Assembly (NCBI RefSeq): GCF_000799075.1
Contig: NZ_JTLI01000008.1
Coordinates: forward strand, 1 to 64,000
DNA: 64,000 nt
Reading direction: 5' to 3'
From: Cetobacterium sp. ZOR0034
GTDB taxonomy: Bacteria; Fusobacteriota; Fusobacteriia; Fusobacteriales; Fusobacteriaceae
Shown here: positions 41,608 through 62,811 of the stretch, in pieces
Layout of the letters: each line of letters opens with the position of its first letter
Numbering within the stretch: position 1 is the first letter of the stretch
Made by a program: the position numbers and the translations under genes
Notes under the pieces: generated by a model
What the model was told of the DNA's origin: nothing
Databases searched by the model: none
The model's input: the letters and a program-made list of their open reading frames with translations, nothing else

Positions 41608-41633
41608 AAAATAGTTAGATAAGAAATCTATTT

Positions 41634-41706
41634 AATTCACCCATAGTGGCTAATTTAAGGTTAGCCGTAGAAACTTCCGACCGTATTACGGATATATATG
41701 AGTAAT
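41634..41706 (-). promoter_or_regulatory. Guanine-class purine riboswitch aptamer
   Basis: On the minus strand the aptamer has P1 ACTCAT/ATGGGT, the J1/2 ATAT stretch, a P2 hairpin, the conserved core AAGTTTCTAC, a P3 hairpin with CCTTAAA loop, and J3/1 ACTATGGG. The specificity base in ACTAT is C, which predicts guanine, hypoxanthine or xanthine-type ligands over adenine. It is followed by a terminator and pbuX, so ligand should switch the whole purine operon off. Confidence 0.93.
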
Positions 41707-41715
41707 TCTTTAATT

Positions 41716-41738
41716 TCCCTTGAAAATATTAAGGGAAT
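41716..41738. repeat. Inverted repeat at the prophage left end
   Basis: TTCCCTT and AAGGGAA separated by nine bases, between the integrase stop and the riboswitch. No strong T tract follows on either strand, so it is either a weak integrase terminator or part of the attachment site. Confidence 0.5.
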
Positions 41739-41786: not shown

Positions 41787-42833
41787 TCACAACTCTTCCA
41801 ACATTGCAATAATTTTTTCACTAGAATCAGGGTATAGATGAGAGTATACATTTAAAGTGGTGTCAACTTTCTCATGTCCCAATCTCTTTGATATAGCTAA
41901 GGGATTAACACCCAAGTGAATTAAAAGTGACGCGTGAGAGTGTCTGAGGTCGTGAATTCTTATCTCTTTAACTCCCACTCTTTCAGCAAACTTTTTTATC
42001 TGTTTTCGTATGTTAGTTTGATGTAATCTAAAAAGTCTAGTTTCCATTTTTAAAGCGTATATCTTTCTAGTGTAAATCTTCAATATTTCTAATAATGAAT
42101 CAGTTATCATAATCTCTCTATTGCTGCTTTCAGTTTTTGGAGGAGTTACTAGATCCTCGCCATTTATTCTTGAAAGTGTTTTATTTATTTTTATAGTTTT
42201 TTTCTTAAAGTTTATATCTCCATACTCCAGTGCAAGAAGTTCACCTATCCTCATTCCAGTATAGAATAATAGATTCAATATAGTGTAAATATCAATTCTT
42301 TCCTCAGCTTCTGCACTAACTCTTTTAAAATCATCTATTGTCCAGATGTTTATTTCTGTACCTAGCTTTCCAATTGTTCCAGCTTTTGTAACTGGATTGT
42401 AGCTCAAATCATGAAATTTTACGGCATAGTTAAATACAGCAGTAAGGGTTGAATTTATCAATCTTAGATATGTTTGACTATATTCAGTTTCTTTCATTAA
42501 TAAATTTTGGAAAGTTCTTATATCGGCTGGAGTGATTTCGCTAAGTTTGTGGCTATTGAAATATGGAATGATTCTTTGAGTTAAAACTACTTTTCTTAAA
42601 TTTGCTGTACTGGCTTTTACTCTACAGCTAATATCATCTAAATATAGCTTACACATCTCTTCAAATGTAGATGTTATATTAGCATCAGGACTTGTTAAAA
42701 ATTCTCTTTCATATTCTAAAGCTTCTTTTTTAGTTTTAAAACCTCTTTTAAAACTTTGTTTTCTTTCTCCTGTATGGGTTATATAATAAAAACGGGATAT
42801 CCAAGTCCCGTTTTTATCTTTAGTTGCTGGCAT
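41787..42833 (-). CDS. int: Phage tyrosine integrase
   Basis: A 348-residue site-specific recombinase. N-terminal AP2-like arm-binding segment (1-50), SAM-like core-binding domain (about 55-150) and catalytic domain. Active-site residues are visible: R in TGMRIGELLAL near 193, HxxR in HDLRHSHASLL near 296, H in LGHEKVDTTLN near 318 and the nucleophile in VYSHLYP near 328. Last gene of the leftward operon, overlapping the excisionase-like gene by 14 bases. It reads towards the host purine riboswitch. Confidence 0.95.
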   Translation of the reverse strand: MPATKDKNGTWISRFYYITHTGERKQSFKRGFKTKKEALEYEREFLTSPDANITSTFEEMCKLYLDDISCRVKASTANLRKVVLTQRIIPYFNSHKLSEITPADIRTFQNLLMKETEYSQTYLRLINSTLTAVFNYAVKFHDLSYNPVTKAGTIGKLGTEINIWTIDDFKRVSAEAEERIDIYTILNLLFYTGMRIGELLALEYGDINFKKKTIKINKTLSRINGEDLVTPPKTESSNREIMITDSLLEILKIYTRKIYALKMETRLFRLHQTNIRKQIKKFAERVGVKEIRIHDLRHSHASLLIHLGVNPLAISKRLGHEKVDTTLNVYSHLYPDSSEKIIAMLEEL

Positions 42834-45544: not shown

Positions 45545-46028
45545 TTTGCTCCTCCTCATCAATTTGTATTCTTTTTATAGCTCTTGCTATTCCAGCTTTT
45601 GTCATTCCAGTAATTTTAATTAAATCTTGTTTGGTCATAGTTTTATAGTTTTCTTTTATGAAAGCACCCCATTTTGTATTTTTCCTTTTTTTCTTACAGA
45701 TTTGTCCAGTTGCTAGTAATCTATCCACAGTAGACTGAACCTTGTGTATTGATACTCCTAGCATGTTTGAAATGTGTTGTATTGATGATGTACTATAATG
45801 CTTTCTAACGAACTTGTCACACTCATCGCTTCTATTTAATAATATCTTTAGATCCCTAGATAATTTCTCATGATAACACTCAATTGCGTATTCAATATCC
45901 TCTTTACGCAACTCTCTAGCTATATATGTTTTCTTTTTAGTGATAACGAACAGAGTTTTTTCATGAGAATAAACCCTATCCGCTACATTTATAATCTTTT
46001 CAAGTTCAGTTCTATTCAGCTGTATCAT
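45531..46028 (-). CDS. Phage DNA-binding protein with helix-turn-helix segments
   Basis: A 165-residue protein with two HTH-like segments: SIQHISNMLGVSIHKVQSTV near 85 and KQDLIKITGMTKAGIARAIK near 130. It may be a regulator or accessory partition protein. Start ATG 46028 overlaps the ParB-like gene; an in-frame GTG at 46040 is possible. No clear Shine-Dalgarno, suggesting coupled translation. Confidence 0.6.
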   Translation of the reverse strand: MIQLNRTELEKIINVADRVYSHEKTLFVITKKKTYIARELRKEDIEYAIECYHEKLSRDLKILLNRSDECDKFVRKHYSTSSIQHISNMLGVSIHKVQSTVDRLLATGQICKKKRKNTKWGAFIKENYKTMTKQDLIKITGMTKAGIARAIKRIQIDEEEQSEFR

Positions 46029-46731
46029 CTGCAACACCAACTAATTTCAGATTATCTTTATTTTCAAACTCTTTATTTCTCTCAGAGATATTTTTTCTCA
46101 ATTCTTTTAAATATTTTTCTAAAACTTCCAACTCTCTTTCAGCTGCATGGAGCTGCTTAGAGTCCATTTTATTTAAACTTTTCTCTAATTTTTCAAAGTT
46201 TTTATAATTTACACATTTAACTTCTTTTTGTAAAAAGTTAGTATTAGTTTCAATAGGAACTATATCAATAGTTTTATTTTCGTTCATACGAGCATCTAAA
46301 AATATTTTTATTTCCTCAGTAGTTGTCAGCTGAAGTTCAGCAGCATCATAGATTATGTTTATAGCAATCTCTTTGTTAGAGAGCATCTTTATAGCTCTTA
46401 CTGATAACGATGTAACCCATTCTTTCTTGTCTCCGAAGTGCATATAAAGCTCATATCTTCTAAGAAGCTCACTAACTTTATCTTTACTAAGCCCAATTCC
46501 TCCATACCACTCCATAAAGCTTCCATCAGCTTTCAGCTTTAGTGAGTTTTCATATAAAGCTTTACAAACTTTAAACATAGAATCAGACATACTTCTGAAA
46601 TTTCTAAAAATAATAGCTTCATTTTCAATAATCTCTTTTTTTAAATTATCTTCAATAGCATATTTTTCAAAGTCAAATATGCTATTATAATCCTCTTGCA
46701 TTTTGCTTTTTAAACTTTGTAAAGCTTTCAT
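46012..46731 (-). CDS. ParB-like partner of ParA (tentative)
   Basis: A 239-residue protein whose start overlaps the parA stop by one base. A helical segment near 65-95 (EWYGGIGLSKDKVSELLRRY) looks like an HTH, and the C-terminal third is a coiled coil (175-225), fit for dimerisation. No ParB CTPase or nuclease motif is visible. The call rests on position behind ParA; it could also be an adaptor of another type. Confidence 0.5.
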   Translation of the reverse strand: MKALQSLKSKMQEDYNSIFDFEKYAIEDNLKKEIIENEAIIFRNFRSMSDSMFKVCKALYENSLKLKADGSFMEWYGGIGLSKDKVSELLRRYELYMHFGDKKEWVTSLSVRAIKMLSNKEIAINIIYDAAELQLTTTEEIKIFLDARMNENKTIDIVPIETNTNFLQKEVKCVNYKNFEKLEKSLNKMDSKQLHAAERELEVLEKYLKELRKNISERNKEFENKDNLKLVGVADDTAE

Positions 46732-47429
46732 TACAGAATCGCCTCCAGAACAGCCTTAAATACTTCCTGAGTGGCTTCCACTCTTTTAGAGTTACATTCC
46801 CATATTGTTTTACCTTCATCAATCAATTTTCCGATGATGGCACTTTGAGAGATTGGAACAGTCAGAAGTATATCGCTTCCTTTTAGAACTTCCTCTAATC
46901 CTCTGTAGTACTCTTTTTCCTTAGCTGTTTTTGTCCATTTATTTATTACAACAGCTGATAGTTTTGAAAGCTCAATATTTTCTAACATTGCTGTAATACT
47001 ATTTATCGTAACCTTATCAGCGAACCCAGGAACAACAACTTTGTCAGCTAAATCTACAAATATTTGGTCAATCCCAATCATTGGAGTTGAGTCTATTAAT
47101 ATATATTTGTATTTAGACCTCATATTGTTTATAAATTGGCTTAGTTTCTCTTTTGATGCACTGTTTATATGTGAAGCTTTCAAAGGTATGAAATATAGCT
47201 TCTCACGAAGTCTCACGACATCCCCAGTACCAGTTTTAATCCAGTTTTCTAAACCAGTTGATGTTTCTACCTTCTCCATTCCTGCGTACTCTAATATATT
47301 ATTTTGGTTATCAGATGTTATTATCAAAACATCTTCTCCACTCAAATACTGTAATCCATGTGCTAATTGCAGAGTCATCCAGCTTTTTCCAACTCCACCT
47401 TTATTATTTTTAATTGCTATTACTTGCAT
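46731..47429 (-). CDS. ParA-type partition ATPase
   Basis: A 232-residue deviant Walker ATPase. The KNNKGGVGKSWMTLQLA motif (residues 7-23) contains the signature lysine, Walker B is YILIDSTP near 107, and PGFADKVTINSI near 131 fits the family. It should drive segregation of an extrachromosomal replicon. Its presence in an integrated prophage points to a plasmid-like phase. A 41-residue gene overlaps its start. Confidence 0.88.
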   Translation of the reverse strand: MQVIAIKNNKGGVGKSWMTLQLAHGLQYLSGEDVLIITSDNQNNILEYAGMEKVETSTGLENWIKTGTGDVVRLREKLYFIPLKASHINSASKEKLSQFINNMRSKYKYILIDSTPMIGIDQIFVDLADKVVVPGFADKVTINSITAMLENIELSKLSAVVINKWTKTAKEKEYYRGLEEVLKGSDILLTVPISQSAIIGKLIDEGKTIWECNSKRVEATQEVFKAVLEAIL

Positions 47430-48517: not shown

Positions 48518-49252
48518 ATGAAGACTTTAGCTCTAACTCTTAAAATGTTAAGAGAAAAAAAAGGACTTTCTATGGAACAACTTGCAGAAAAAGCAAAAGT
48601 TAGTAAGGGTATCATTGGAGAAATTGAAAGGGACAAGACTAGGTCCACAGTAAAAACATTGAATAAAATAGCTAACGCTTTAGAATTGACAATTGCAGAA
48701 AAAAATGATTTAGATAATGCTTTTTTACAAAAAAATACATCAGATATAAATGTTTTGAATATAGGCGATCCCATAAAGATGATGGTAATACCTGTTTTTT
48801 CTAGTGTTGCAGCTGGAATGGGTTATATACCTGATGCAGAACCAATAGATTTTATAAGTATTCCAGAAGTTGGCGGAGAATGTATCGGAATTAGGGTGGC
48901 TGGTGATAGCATGGAGCCTACATTTTATAATAATGATATAGTTGTTATAAAAAAAGATATTGAGGTCGGATTAGGGGAAGTAGGTGTATTTTTAAATAAA
49001 CATTCTGGAGAGTCTTGGGTTAAAAGATTAAAAAAGAAAAATGGAGTTTATGTACTAGAGAGTGATAATCACATGTTTAAAGATAAAGAGATAAAATCAG
49101 ATGAAATATGTTGTTGTGGTAAAGTTATAAATGTGGTTAAAAAAGATTTGAAAAAAAGAGTAAATCCGCTGCTTGAAAAAATAGAGATGCTAGATCCTAA
49201 GCAACAGGAAATTTTAGAAATGATGATTAACGGATTGTTAGATAAAAAATAA
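48518..49252 (+). CDS. CI-like phage repressor, XRE HTH plus S24 peptidase
   Basis: A 244-residue lysogeny repressor. HTH_3 domain at 5-60 (LSMEQLAEKAKVSKGIIGEI), then a LexA/CI-type self-cleaving domain: Ala-Gly cleavage site in SVAAGMGY near 97, catalytic serine in GDSMEPTF near 133 and lysine in SWVKRLKKK near 172. It should maintain lysogeny and cleave after DNA damage. GAAGGAGG precedes the ATG. Operators 2 and 3 lie upstream for autoregulation. Confidence 0.95.
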   Translation: MKTLALTLKMLREKKGLSMEQLAEKAKVSKGIIGEIERDKTRSTVKTLNKIANALELTIAEKNDLDNAFLQKNTSDINVLNIGDPIKMMVIPVFSSVAAGMGYIPDAEPIDFISIPEVGGECIGIRVAGDSMEPTFYNNDIVVIKKDIEVGLGEVGVFLNKHSGESWVKRLKKKNGVYVLESDNHMFKDKEIKSDEICCCGKVINVVKKDLKKRVNPLLEKIEMLDPKQQEILEMMINGLLDKK

Positions 49253-53732: not shown

Positions 53733-54319
53733 AAAATTTTAAGAAGATCTGGTGAAATTTTCTCTAAAAAAGTAATAAGAATAGTGAGAGCCATAATAGT
53801 GTCTACTATAATTTCGATAGTTTTTTTTAGAGTAGAATGAATCTTGAATGGAAATAGTGATAAAAAATTAGTTACTATAAATCTTACTCCTTTTTTCAGC
53901 CAGTAAAAAGGGTTTATAAGATTGATAGCGTAGTTCTGTATTTTTATTTCGCTTTCCACTTGAATCGCTTTAGAAAACAATGCGTTTAAAGAATAACTAA
54001 GGATATTCTTTAAATATCTAGTTAACAGAGATTGATAATTAAAAAGAACATATTCTAAAAGTGACTGTGATGGTAAATATCCAGATTTTAATTCGCCTAA
54101 AGATGTTGAATTTATAAGTTTACAATTTTGATTTAAAAATAGTAAGTGTTCATCTAAGTCACCTATTCCTAAGTCGATTTTATTTCTAAATTCTTTAAAA
54201 TGATTTATAGATTTTGCTATTGTTCTTTTGATGTTAATAATAATAATAAGTTCTTTTAGAGAAATGAAAAATCCAATTATAAGTAAGATGATAAAAATAT
54301 TTTTTAAAGTAAATGACAT
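53711..54319 (-). CDS. Membrane protein moron
   Basis: A 202-residue protein with an N-terminal transmembrane helix (about 7-28), a helical middle, and one or two hydrophobic segments at the C-terminus (about 170-200). No motif recognised. It is on the minus strand within rightward early genes and has its own near-consensus promoter. A membrane protein expressed from a lysogen could act in superinfection exclusion; that is inference. Confidence 0.6.
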   Translation of the reverse strand: MSFTLKNIFIILLIIGFFISLKELIIIINIKRTIAKSINHFKEFRNKIDLGIGDLDEHLLFLNQNCKLINSTSLGELKSGYLPSQSLLEYVLFNYQSLLTRYLKNILSYSLNALFSKAIQVESEIKIQNYAINLINPFYWLKKGVRFIVTNFLSLFPFKIHSTLKKTIEIIVDTIMALTILITFLEKISPDLLKILISMLNL

Positions 54320-54357
54320 AATCCCTCCATAAATTTGTTTTGTTGTGTTGGAACTCT

Positions 54358-54386
54358 ATTATAACTATTTGGAGGATTATATACAA
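54358..54386 (-). promoter_or_regulatory. Promoter of the membrane protein moron
   Basis: On the minus strand TTGTAT, 17 bases, TATAAT. The -10 element ends 39 bases before the start codon of the gene at 54319. Confidence 0.65.
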
Positions 54387-54419
54387 GCCTACTACGGTAG
54401 GCATCTTATTTCAACTCTT

Positions 54420-54496
54420 CATGTTTAGCCAGTTGACTATAACTAAGCATGGAGGGTTGTAATAAGATAAATAATAAAATAAAGATGGTCAACTGG
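54420..54496 (+). promoter_or_regulatory. Predicted pseudoknot leader of the replication initiator
   Basis: CATGTTTAG (54420-54428) pairs with CTAAGCATG (54443-54451). Twelve bases of its loop, CCAGTTGACTAT (54429-54440), pair with ATGGTCAACTGG (54485-54496), all pairs matched with one G-U. The second stem ends 17 bases before GGGGAGG. A further hairpin GCCTAC/GTAGGC lies at 54387-54402. Confidence 0.65.
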
Positions 54497-54523
54497 CACT
54501 TGACCTCTTAGGGGAGGAACAAA

Positions 54524-55540
54524 ATGAATCATAGTTTTGATATAGATTTAGCAAAAGAATACGGGATAGAGGAAGCTATAATGATTGAAAATATCGCTTT
54601 CTGGATTAAAAAAAATATGGTTAATAACAAGCATTATATAGAGGATAAGTATTGGACATTTAACTCAGTGAGAGCTTTCAATGAACTTTTCCCTTATATG
54701 AATCCAAGCAAGATAAATAGAACTTTGAAAAAATTAGAAAAAATTGGAATTATAGAGATTGGAAAACATAATAAAGCTGCTTATGACCAAACATCGTGGT
54801 ATACGATAATAAACGAAGAAATTTTAGAGAAATATAAGCTAATACCTGATAATTGCTCATTTTGCAAAATGAAAAATGGTTTTGTCAATTTGCAAAATAG
54901 ATCTGTGCAAAATGAAAAACCTATACCATATGTAAACACAGATATAAACACAGATATAAAAAATAAACATGTAACATGCTCTGATTTAAAAAAACCTGAA
55001 AAGAAAATAATGCTTGGACTAAATCCAAAAGGTTATCCTCAGAAAGATGAATGGGAAAAGTTCTTAAATAAAAATTTAATTGGAGTAGACTATACTCCAG
55101 CTATAGAAAAAGCAATTAAGAATCTATTAAAAACAGAAACTTCAGTTGCGGTAGAAAAGATATTGCTAGAAACGTATAAAACTGGAATTGAGACTGGTAG
55201 AACAGTTTCAGAGATAGCAACTATCATCAGCAAAGGAAATGCCCTTAGAGCTAAAGCTGTAAAGCCTAAGAAAGAAAAAAAGATTACAGAGGAGAAAGGG
55301 CAAGATGAAATAATCATAGCATCATCACTAGACAAAGAAAAAGAGTTTATCCAGAAAAGAGAACTGGAGAAACAAGAAGTTGAAAAACAGAAGTTGCCAG
55401 AAGTGGAATTAACACCAGAATTGGAGGAAGTGTTGATAGAAAAAGTTGTTGCAACAGAGGGAATTGCAAAGACTTTTCTAAAAAAAATGAAAATCAAAAA
55501 TAATTTTATGTATGAAAACATGCTGAAAAAATATTTATAA
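54524..55540 (+). CDS. Phage replication initiator, DnaD-like
   Basis: A 338-residue protein. The N-terminal winged helix (IDLAKEYGIEEAIMIENIAFW and FNELFPYMNPSKINRTLKKL, residues 7-70) is typical of phage replisome organisers. The centre (118-145) encodes iterated sequence and the C-terminal half is charged with a coiled coil (250-290). It should bind the origin and recruit host DnaB. GGGGAGGAAC precedes ATG. Iterons inside the gene suggest the origin is internal. Confidence 0.78.
   Translation: MNHSFDIDLAKEYGIEEAIMIENIAFWIKKNMVNNKHYIEDKYWTFNSVRAFNELFPYMNPSKINRTLKKLEKIGIIEIGKHNKAAYDQTSWYTIINEEILEKYKLIPDNCSFCKMKNGFVNLQNRSVQNEKPIPYVNTDINTDIKNKHVTCSDLKKPEKKIMLGLNPKGYPQKDEWEKFLNKNLIGVDYTPAIEKAIKNLLKTETSVAVEKILLETYKTGIETGRTVSEIATIISKGNALRAKAVKPKKEKKITEEKGQDEIIIASSLDKEKEFIQKRELEKQEVEKQKLPEVELTPELEEVLIEKVVATEGIAKTFLKKMKIKNNFMYENMLKKYL
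54861..54957 (+). repeat. Iterons inside the initiator gene, candidate phage origin
   Basis: TTTTGCAAAATGAAAA-type repeats at 54860, 54889 and 54904 (shared core TGCAAAAT), followed by a perfect 12-base tandem repeat AAACACAGATAT at 54934-54957 and an A-rich stretch. In lambda and many Gram-positive phages such repeats in the initiator gene are its binding sites. Confidence 0.6.
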
Positions 55541-60524: not shown

Positions 60525-60980
60525 ATGGCTATTACAGCAACGGAAAATCAATTAACAAGATTACTTCAGATTTCAGATAGAACAATTAGAGAAAATTATA
60601 AAACTGCAAAAATCTCTCCGGGTAAATATGACTTGATAAAAGCTATAGAGATATTTGTTTCTAGTGTTAAGGTTGCGAATGATAGGAGTGAGTTAGTGGA
60701 GAGTGAGAAGCGATATAAGCTTTCTCAAGTGGCTTTAAATGATGCAAAATTGAAAATAATTGAAAAAGAATATATATCTGTGGATGAAGCGGTAGAATCA
60801 GTCTCAACTATGCTCTTCAATTTCAAATCAAAAATTATGTCGCTACCTAAGAAAATAATGTTGGATTTAAAAAAGAGCAAATCAGCAGGAGAGCAGGAAA
60901 AAATAATTGAAAAACATCTGAAACATGCAATAGGAGAATTGAAGGGCTACTTGGAAATAAAGGAGAAAAAGGATGAATAG
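60525..60980 (+). CDS. Nu1-like terminase small subunit
   Basis: A 151-residue protein with an N-terminal winged-helix/HTH (NQLTRLLQISDRTIRENY, residues 7-24) and a long coiled C-terminal half, as in the Nu1 family. ATG 60525 is chosen because GGAGG lies 10 bases upstream. It overlaps the large terminase by 8 bases. In lambda Nu1 binds cosB and recruits GpA. Confidence 0.72.
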   Translation: MAITATENQLTRLLQISDRTIRENYKTAKISPGKYDLIKAIEIFVSSVKVANDRSELVESEKRYKLSQVALNDAKLKIIEKEYISVDEAVESVSTMLFNFKSKIMSLPKKIMLDLKKSKSAGEQEKIIEKHLKHAIGELKGYLEIKEKKDE

Positions 60981-62811
60981 AAGAGAAATGTTTTTTAAAG
61001 CCATATCTCACGCTTTGAAAATGCCTCCAGACTTATCTTTGACAGAATGGAGTGACAAGAATCGAAAATTATCGAAAGAGTCGTCAGCCGAGCATGGAGA
61101 TTGGGTAACTTCAAGAACACCATATATGCTAGAAATATATGATAGCGTTATGAAAGCACGTGTAAGGAAGGTTGTTTTACAGTTCGGATCACAATTGGCA
61201 AAGACAGAGTTTATATTGAATAGCTTTGGTTGGTATGCTAATTTAGATCCTTGTCCCATGATGGTTGTTCAACCGACGGATAGATTAGCTTCTGAGTTTT
61301 CAAAAGAAAGAGTAGCTCCTATGATACGTGATTGTGAAGTTCTCAGGGAACTGATAAAAGATTCTAGTAAAAAGAACAGCGGAAACACAGTAACACACAA
61401 GATGTTTCCTGGTGGGTTTTTGGCCTTTAAGGGCGCGAATTCTCCTGCTGGATTAGCTTCTAAGCCAGTTAAAGTTTTGTTCATGGATGAGGTGGACAGA
61501 TACCCTAAATCATCTGGAGACGAGGGGTCACCAATTACACTTGCAGAAAAAAGGGTGCAGACTTATGACGATCACAAAATTATAATAACTGGAACTCCGA
61601 CTATAAAAGGGCAGTCTGAGATAGAAACAGAATATGAAAAAGGCTCTATGGCTAGATATTTTGTAGCTTGTCCAATATGCGGAGATGATAATGAGTTGTT
61701 GTTTGATAATCTAAGTTGGGATTTAAATGAGAATGATATTTTGAAAGTTGATAAAGTTGAAATGATTTGCGAACATTGTGGATGTGGAGCAGATGAAGAG
61801 TCTTGGAAAGATGAAAAGGGGCGATGGATTCATGAGTATCCTGAAAGAACAACCCTTTCATATAAGTTATCAGCTTTAGCAAGCGTAATGAGGGATTGGA
61901 AAAGTATTGTGGAAGAATATTTATCAAAAAAAGATAACGAACAAGAATTAATATCGTTTGTAAATACAGTTTTAGGAGAATCCTACGAACAAACACTTGG
62001 AGAGATATTGGACCATGAGATTCTAATGCAGAGACGTGAAACTTATGAAGCTGAGGTTCCAGAAGGAGTATTGTTATTAACAGCTGGTGTCGACGTACAA
62101 GATGGCTGGTTAGCAATAGAAGTTGTTGGGCATGGAATGGATAACGAAACTTGGGGTATTCAATATAAGATATTATCTGGCAATTTAGAAAAATCAGAGA
62201 TTTGGGAAGAACTAGACGAGTTTTTATCTAAAAAATTTTATTATGAAGATGGCACAGGTATCAATATTTATTCTACATGTATAGATACTGGAGGACATCA
62301 TACAGAAGCAGTTTATGATTTTGTAAAACCTCGTGAAACCCACAGAAGAATATTTGGAATCAAAGGTTTAGGCGGAGAAAATGTACCGATTATAAATGGA
62401 TTTAGATTAACAAAAAATAAAAAAATAAATCTGTTGTCGTTAGGTGTTAACGCATTAAAAGATATGACTATGGGTAGATTAAAAATTTCTGAACCAGGAC
62501 CTGGATATTGTCACTACCCGCTTGATCCGATATTAAAATATGATGAGAGGTATTTTAAGGCTCTAACTGCAGAAACTAAAACGGTTAATAAAAAGAACTG
62601 GAAAGTCACATGGACACAAGTTAGAAAAAGAAATGAAGCACTCGATTGTAGAAACTACGCTTTAGCTGCTAAAGAGATATTTACGAAGTTGGATATGAAC
62701 AAGTTGGCCAAGTTGAGAAGAGAGCAATTAGGAGAGATTTTCGAGTATAAAATCTCACAGAAGAAAAAGCATAAAATAAAAATAGAGGGAGGTGTAAATA
62801 AGTATGACTAG
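60973..62811 (+). CDS. Terminase large subunit, GpA family
   Basis: A 612-residue packaging motor and nuclease. LTEWSDKNRKLSKESSAEHG near the N-terminus, a Walker A-like VVLQFGSQLAKTEF near 59, Walker B VLFMDEVDRYP near 168 and coupling motif IITGTP near 198 define the ATPase. A zinc ribbon (CPICG, CEHCG near 231-268) and the GVDVQDGWLAIEVVG nuclease segment near 370 follow. GpA-type terminases cut at cos sites. Confidence 0.92.
   Translation: MNRREMFFKAISHALKMPPDLSLTEWSDKNRKLSKESSAEHGDWVTSRTPYMLEIYDSVMKARVRKVVLQFGSQLAKTEFILNSFGWYANLDPCPMMVVQPTDRLASEFSKERVAPMIRDCEVLRELIKDSSKKNSGNTVTHKMFPGGFLAFKGANSPAGLASKPVKVLFMDEVDRYPKSSGDEGSPITLAEKRVQTYDDHKIIITGTPTIKGQSEIETEYEKGSMARYFVACPICGDDNELLFDNLSWDLNENDILKVDKVEMICEHCGCGADEESWKDEKGRWIHEYPERTTLSYKLSALASVMRDWKSIVEEYLSKKDNEQELISFVNTVLGESYEQTLGEILDHEILMQRRETYEAEVPEGVLLLTAGVDVQDGWLAIEVVGHGMDNETWGIQYKILSGNLEKSEIWEELDEFLSKKFYYEDGTGINIYSTCIDTGGHHTEAVYDFVKPRETHRRIFGIKGLGGENVPIINGFRLTKNKKINLLSLGVNALKDMTMGRLKISEPGPGYCHYPLDPILKYDERYFKALTAETKTVNKKNWKVTWTQVRKRNEALDCRNYALAAKEIFTKLDMNKLAKLRREQLGEIFEYKISQKKKHKIKIEGGVNKYD

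Follow-up and report, generated by a model that had tools for sequence, protein, structure and literature searches.

A candidate translational switch with a conserved loop-to-downstream pseudoknot ahead of prophage replication initiators in Fusobacteriaceae

The prophage and the leader of its initiator gene

The window, our term for the whole 64,000-nucleotide stretch analysed here from Cetobacterium sp. ZOR0034 (NZ_JTLI01000008.1, positions 1 to 64,000), carries a prophage integrated into the genome of a member of the Fusobacteriaceae. Prophage genes include an integrase (41787-42833), a ParA-type ATPase (46731-47429), a CI-like repressor (48518-49252), and a gpA-type terminase (60973-62811). 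The replication initiator gene (54524-55540, plus strand) starts at an ATG at 54524 and encodes a DnaD-like protein of 338 amino acids with a phrog_11233 N-terminus. Its Shine-Dalgarno (SD) sequence, GGGGAGG, lies at 54511-54517 on the plus strand. Repeats of TTTTGCAAAAT and TGCAAAATGAAAAA within the gene (54857-54919) may be origin iterons of the kind present in initiator genes of other phages. Beside the integrase end of the prophage, a purine riboswitch (41624-41721; Rfam RF00167, 67.9 bits) precedes a purine/xanthine permease-like gene. The ParA-type ATPase has a neighbor in the ParB position (46012-47429), with both genes inside the integrated prophage.

The leader of the initiator gene folds at -50 kcal/mol (z = -7.2), and none of 200 shuffled sequences folded equally well. 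At its 5' end is a small G+C hairpin (GCCTAC-TACG-GTAGGC, 54387-54402, plus strand) that is limited to a subfamily comprising the window and genomes G048, G007, and G008, with a degenerate form in G002. Read on the minus strand, the sequence of this hairpin could mark the end of an antisense RNA. Next comes hairpin I (54403-54468, plus strand), a stem of 25 pairs arranged as 8 and 17 pairs flanking a U-U mismatch (54403-54410 with 54461-54468, and 54412-54428 with 54443-54459). Its loop exposes strand a, GCCAGTTGACTAT (54428-54440, plus strand), which pairs with the downstream strand b, ATGGTCAACTGGC (54485-54497, plus strand), over 13 base pairs including one G-U. In the window leader, a match of this length was reached in 1 of 5000 shuffles that retained the hairpin and randomized the downstream part. 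An earlier note on this sequence had described a 9-pair hairpin at 54420-54451 whose loop pairs over 12 bases with 54485-54496. The hairpin is present (54420-54428 with 54443-54451) but is merely the top of the longer stem, and the loop pairing is real but its downstream strand had been placed one base off.

Between hairpin I and b lies an A/T-rich single-stranded linker (54469-54481, plus strand) whose character is conserved. Strand b is followed directly by strand c, ACTTGACCTCTTA (54498-54510, plus strand), which combines a mimic of a with an anti-SD. Strand c has two alternative partners. Positions 54500-54509 can pair with 54482-54492, which includes most of b, to form hairpin III and leave the SD open, or 54504-54508 can pair with 54513-54517 and close the SD.

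Immediately upstream of the leader, a promoter-like element on the minus strand (TTGTAT-17-TATAAT, 54360-54386) points away from the leader and toward the gene at 54319-53711. Its sequence is kept in G048, G007, and G025. We rejected the conserved TATAACTTTTTGGAGGATTATATACAAG element as a promoter or SD of the leader because it was better explained as this promoter of the divergent gene on the opposite strand.

A family of leaders in Fusobacteriaceae prophages

The initial relative was G048, which has a closely related initiator behind the same leader, whose loop and downstream strand carry compensatory changes. DNA and pattern searches added the leaders of G007 and G025. A first covariance model was built from these four leaders with a structure consisting of hairpin I and b:c, without a:b, and yielded more members when used to search 98 Fusobacteriota genomes. 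A second model, built from 20 leaders and an RNAalifold structure of only 13 hairpin I pairs, yielded three further leaders that we treated as hold-outs. We count 25 leaders, distributed over 16 of 61 Fusobacteriaceae genomes, and the covariance model search found no convincing leader in the 37 genomes of other Fusobacteriota. The prophages with leaders span six Fusobacteriaceae genera, and the leader also occurs on seven IMG/VR stretches (L049, L050, and L084-L088). The window displays the features that define this family of initiator leaders, namely hairpin I, a:b, b:c, and an anti-SD before a phage initiator.

Genes following the leader encode replication initiators or helicase loaders belonging to several unrelated families, and 9 of 10 tested genes matched PHROGs of this kind. 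The occurrence of unrelated initiator types behind the leader suggests it is a module that travels independently of initiator type.

Several arrangements depart from that of the window. In L120:2363-3025 (G017:C5), an ORF that we read as GIY-YIG-like sits between the leader and the initiator, overlapping the initiator start. Two G002 prophage loci, L119 (G002:C13:62500-66000) and G002:C9:33535-33729, have tandem copies of hairpin I before a single b strand. Both loops match b in C13, and only the second loop does so in C9. At a contig end of G048, a second element resembling the promoter plus leader (L037:1-145, minus strand) has a tiny hairpin loop and ends before any gene. Relatives of the initiator from another genus (L013:1289-1500 and L014:1162-1462) lack the leader and are instead preceded by short direct-repeat arrays (ATACGCCACAT and ACGTCATAT).

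DNA searches found no homologue of the leader in named phages. One DNA search of plasmid records returned nothing, and another returned only a prophage on the 705-kb plasmid of Cetobacterium somerae (NZ_CP092520.1). The leader had no match in Rfam, and we found no description of such an RNA in open-licence papers. Most weak covariance hits (E 0.006-0.05) lacked the a:b arrangement on checking and were taken as chance. Outside the family, the weak match L103 (G097:C15:1803-1908; E 0.007) has a strong b:c-like hairpin before an SD and no clear a:b. Scans of viral contigs with generic a...b...SD patterns matched only unrelated DNA that appeared to be protein-coding.

Covariation and accessibility of the SD

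We quantified pairing between a and b across the family after anchoring each strand solely at its GC dinucleotide. Positions 1-11 formed standard pairs in 18-19 of 19 leaders. All four Watson-Crick pairs occurred at positions 5, 6, 7, and 9, and three of them at positions 8 and 11. Among 22 non-redundant leaders, the mean a:b energy was -20.3 kcal/mol with a strand's own partner versus -9.2 kcal/mol with the partners of other leaders, and the sum of self-pairing energies was matched by none of 50,000 permutations. The three hold-outs also have a:b pairs of 10-13 bp (GCCAAACTTCTCT/AGAGAAGTTTGGC, TTCCACAAGTC/GACTTGTGGAA, and CCAACCACGG/CCGTGGTTGG) even though the model that retrieved them was blind to a:b. 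The GCCA start is missing in two of these three.

Hairpin I covaried strongly, with changes on both sides in 14 of 21 counted pairs and 93% of cells paired. Its covariation score was 0.61, compared with 0.07-0.14 after sliding. Relatedness among leaders inflates the shuffle tests, whereas the slid control and the hold-outs are independent of them. Chance can be excluded as the source of the a:b pairing in the window because the pairing is conserved in relatives. We conclude that the loop-to-downstream pseudoknot is real and conserved. The conservation in related phages that the earlier note had named as a check held across the 22 leaders. In the window, the pseudoknot precedes a replication initiator (phrog_11233/DnaD-like) within what is probably a translational-control leader.

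Strand c resembles a, both in the window (a, GTTGACTA; c, CTTGACCT) and in G048 (a, GTGGATTC; c, CTGGATCT), and most leaders have CCUC or CUCC as the anti-SD in c. The b:c energy was -10.9 for a leader's own strands versus -7.1 for those of others, which was equalled by none of 50,000 permutations. This self-specificity implies that c covaries with b and mimics a. Hairpins formed by c and the SD were weak, at a mean of -5.2 kcal/mol, and had p < 0.2 relative to shuffled c in 15 of 19 leaders. They displayed no self-specificity, since the SD is nearly constant, and hence no covariation support, which leaves the conserved anti-SD motif as the backing for this helix.

Folding the 3' segment of each leader yielded a mean probability of a free SD of 0.68 when b was open and 0.31 when b was blocked (22 leaders). 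Blocking b reduced this probability in 18 of 22 leaders, and 60 sets in which c was shuffled produced no mean drop of this size. The remaining four (G007, G002_C1, G002_C13b, and G035_C5) changed little, since their SD is already closed within the short segment. Slightly altered segment ends do make G002_C1 switch.

A two-state model and its rivals

Based on sequence and folding models, we consider it reasonably probable that the 5' leader of the prophage's replication-initiator mRNA works in cis as a translational switch, with the pseudoknot belonging to the OFF state. Four helices would participate: hairpin I, the a:b pseudoknot, and hairpin III (b:c), all of which are backed by covariation, together with c:SD. 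Since b is common to a:b and b:c, and c is common to b:c and c:SD, these helices would sort into two coherent states. In the OFF state, a would capture b, freeing c to close the SD. In the ON state, a would be unavailable and b would capture c, leaving the SD open. The pseudoknot should then turn translation off and the b:c hairpin turn it on, opposite to the IncI-alpha arrangement. However, a single base separates the end of hairpin III from the SD, and the hairpin itself could hinder the ribosome, which would permit the opposite sign. Given that a is transcribed first, followed by b and then c, the nascent RNA should reach the OFF state before the ON state. The initiator would be expected to turn on in response to a signal that makes loop a unavailable by masking or unfolding it. 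The likely purpose would be to restrain synthesis of the initiator in the prophage state, limiting replication until induction. This design resembles riboswitch-type anti-SD/anti-anti-SD switches in that two exclusive folds decide whether the anti-SD binds the SD. It differs in that the leader would sense through a long hairpin loop that pairs internally, and no conserved ligand pocket is evident.

A less favored alternative, which we regard as possible but rather unlikely, is that hairpin I acts in trans. Release could occur, for example, by cutting in the A/U-rich linker, after which loop a would bind b on other leaders. The released hairpin would silence the initiator, whether that of the same phage or that of a superinfecting one, resulting in immunity or copy control. 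One parallel is the CI RNA of satellite phage P4, in the leader of the alpha replication operon, where the middle strand seqB is complementary to both seqA and seqC. P4 immunity operates by premature transcription termination via a processed trans-acting RNA. Like the P4 RNA, the leader precedes phage replication genes and has three successive strands, a, b, and c, of which b can pair with the upstream as well as the downstream one. Unlike in P4, a rather than b occupies a hairpin loop, and the downstream c is an anti-SD. The c4 antisense RNA of P1/P7/P22 (RF01695) is another structured RNA that lies upstream in the same transcript and pairs at a downstream ribosome site. As with c4, a structured RNA of a temperate phage pairs near a ribosome site further along the transcript, but the leader has one loop rather than two and targets a replication initiator. 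The c4 model had no match at the gathering threshold in the window and none up to E = 5 in 54300-54600.

Action in trans would fit the fast divergence of the loop, which differs even among prophages within one genome (AAGTACTATC, AAGTAAATCT, and AAGTATCT in G002), as well as the duplication of hairpin I in G002:C13 and G002:C9 and the unstructured A/T-rich linker that follows hairpin I in the aligned leaders. Against it, the sequence between hairpin I and b contains no terminator or terminator-like U-run, and there is no sign at the sequence level of a separate small RNA or of processing. Two prophages in G027 have near-identical specificity, which implies that orthogonality is not enforced. 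The sequence tests respond identically to pairing in cis and in trans. A bolder extension, which we hold only tentatively and think unlikely, is that the leaders carry a three-copy specificity code, consisting of a, its complement b, and its mimic c. Such leaders would form an undescribed class of phage RNA switch whose loop acts between genomes, with the code of each prophage setting whose initiators are silenced. If true, fusobacterial phages would possess an RNA-only immunity and copy-number code.

Control of the IncI-alpha/IncB type appears improbable, more so than action in trans. It would require an antisense RNA that binds hairpin I and senses copy number, with a:b activating initiator translation. 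In IncI-alpha plasmids, the pseudoknot activates translation and hairpin III sequesters the SD. The anatomy of the leader corresponds to IncI-alpha/IncB in its long hairpin, the pairing of the loop just ahead of the SD, and the competing hairpin III. Specifically, the leader shares with IncI-alpha (ColIb-P9 RepZ) and IncB/IncL/M a loop that pairs just ahead of the initiator SD, a hairpin III, and initiator translation as the target. It differs in residing in Fusobacteriaceae prophages, in an a:b of about 8-14 bp, and in having no conserved repY/repB. Furthermore, hairpin III of the leader holds an anti-SD and not the SD itself, for which the folding models predict the reversed sign. I-complex plasmids use RNAI together with a leader peptide to control their initiators (PMC10286972, PMC10724649), and translation of the leader peptide gene (repY/repB) is needed for initiator expression (PMC10286972). 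No conserved leader peptide, defined as an SD, a start, and an ORF over hairpin I, was found in 20 leaders. A candidate ORF read from GGAGG...TTG (MEDYIQAY...) was dropped because, although open in the window and in G048, it is interrupted in both G007 and G025.

The search for an antisense RNA had a mixed result. On its minus strand, the window has a promoter candidate (TTGACC-17-TATCTT) with the G+C hairpin as a possible terminator, and its best antisense promoter score had p = 0.03. However, antisense promoters were weak family-wide when scored against shuffles (median p = 0.155), and the candidate terminator hairpin is missing from most members. The host genome has no second copy of the specificity sequence, making a separately encoded antisense RNA unlikely. 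We found no link in Rfam between the leader and IncI-alpha/IncB systems. Of the plasmid-type copy control that the earlier note proposed, then, the pseudoknot anatomy survives, while the leader peptide is not conserved and the computed sign is inverted, in that a:b frees the anti-SD. The note had also tied copy control to ParA, yet of the stretches tested only G048, the nearest relative, shares the ParA/ParB region with the window (60-69% identity), and we regard the link as incidental. The leader works partly like I-complex control but is not a member of it.

Finally, the idea that a and b are inverted repeats acting as DNA elements, such as operator or origin sites, is nearly refuted: they adjoin the initiator gene and inverted repeats are often protein sites, but their letters vary freely while complementarity is maintained, G-U pairs included, whereas a protein site would keep its letters, and the surroundings of the repeat are those of an RNA, in which both a hairpin and a third strand covary.

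RNA pseudoknots are familiar as regulators of replication initiators in a few enterobacterial plasmids. The cis-acting switch that we favor would be a different build, adding a third strand that mimics a and apparently inverting the logic. Its position ahead of mutually unrelated initiators points to a portable control module, and natural variants already supply distinct sets of a, b, and c. The leader may thereby offer direct access to the question of how prophages in Fusobacteriaceae, including those of Cetobacterium, keep their replication off.
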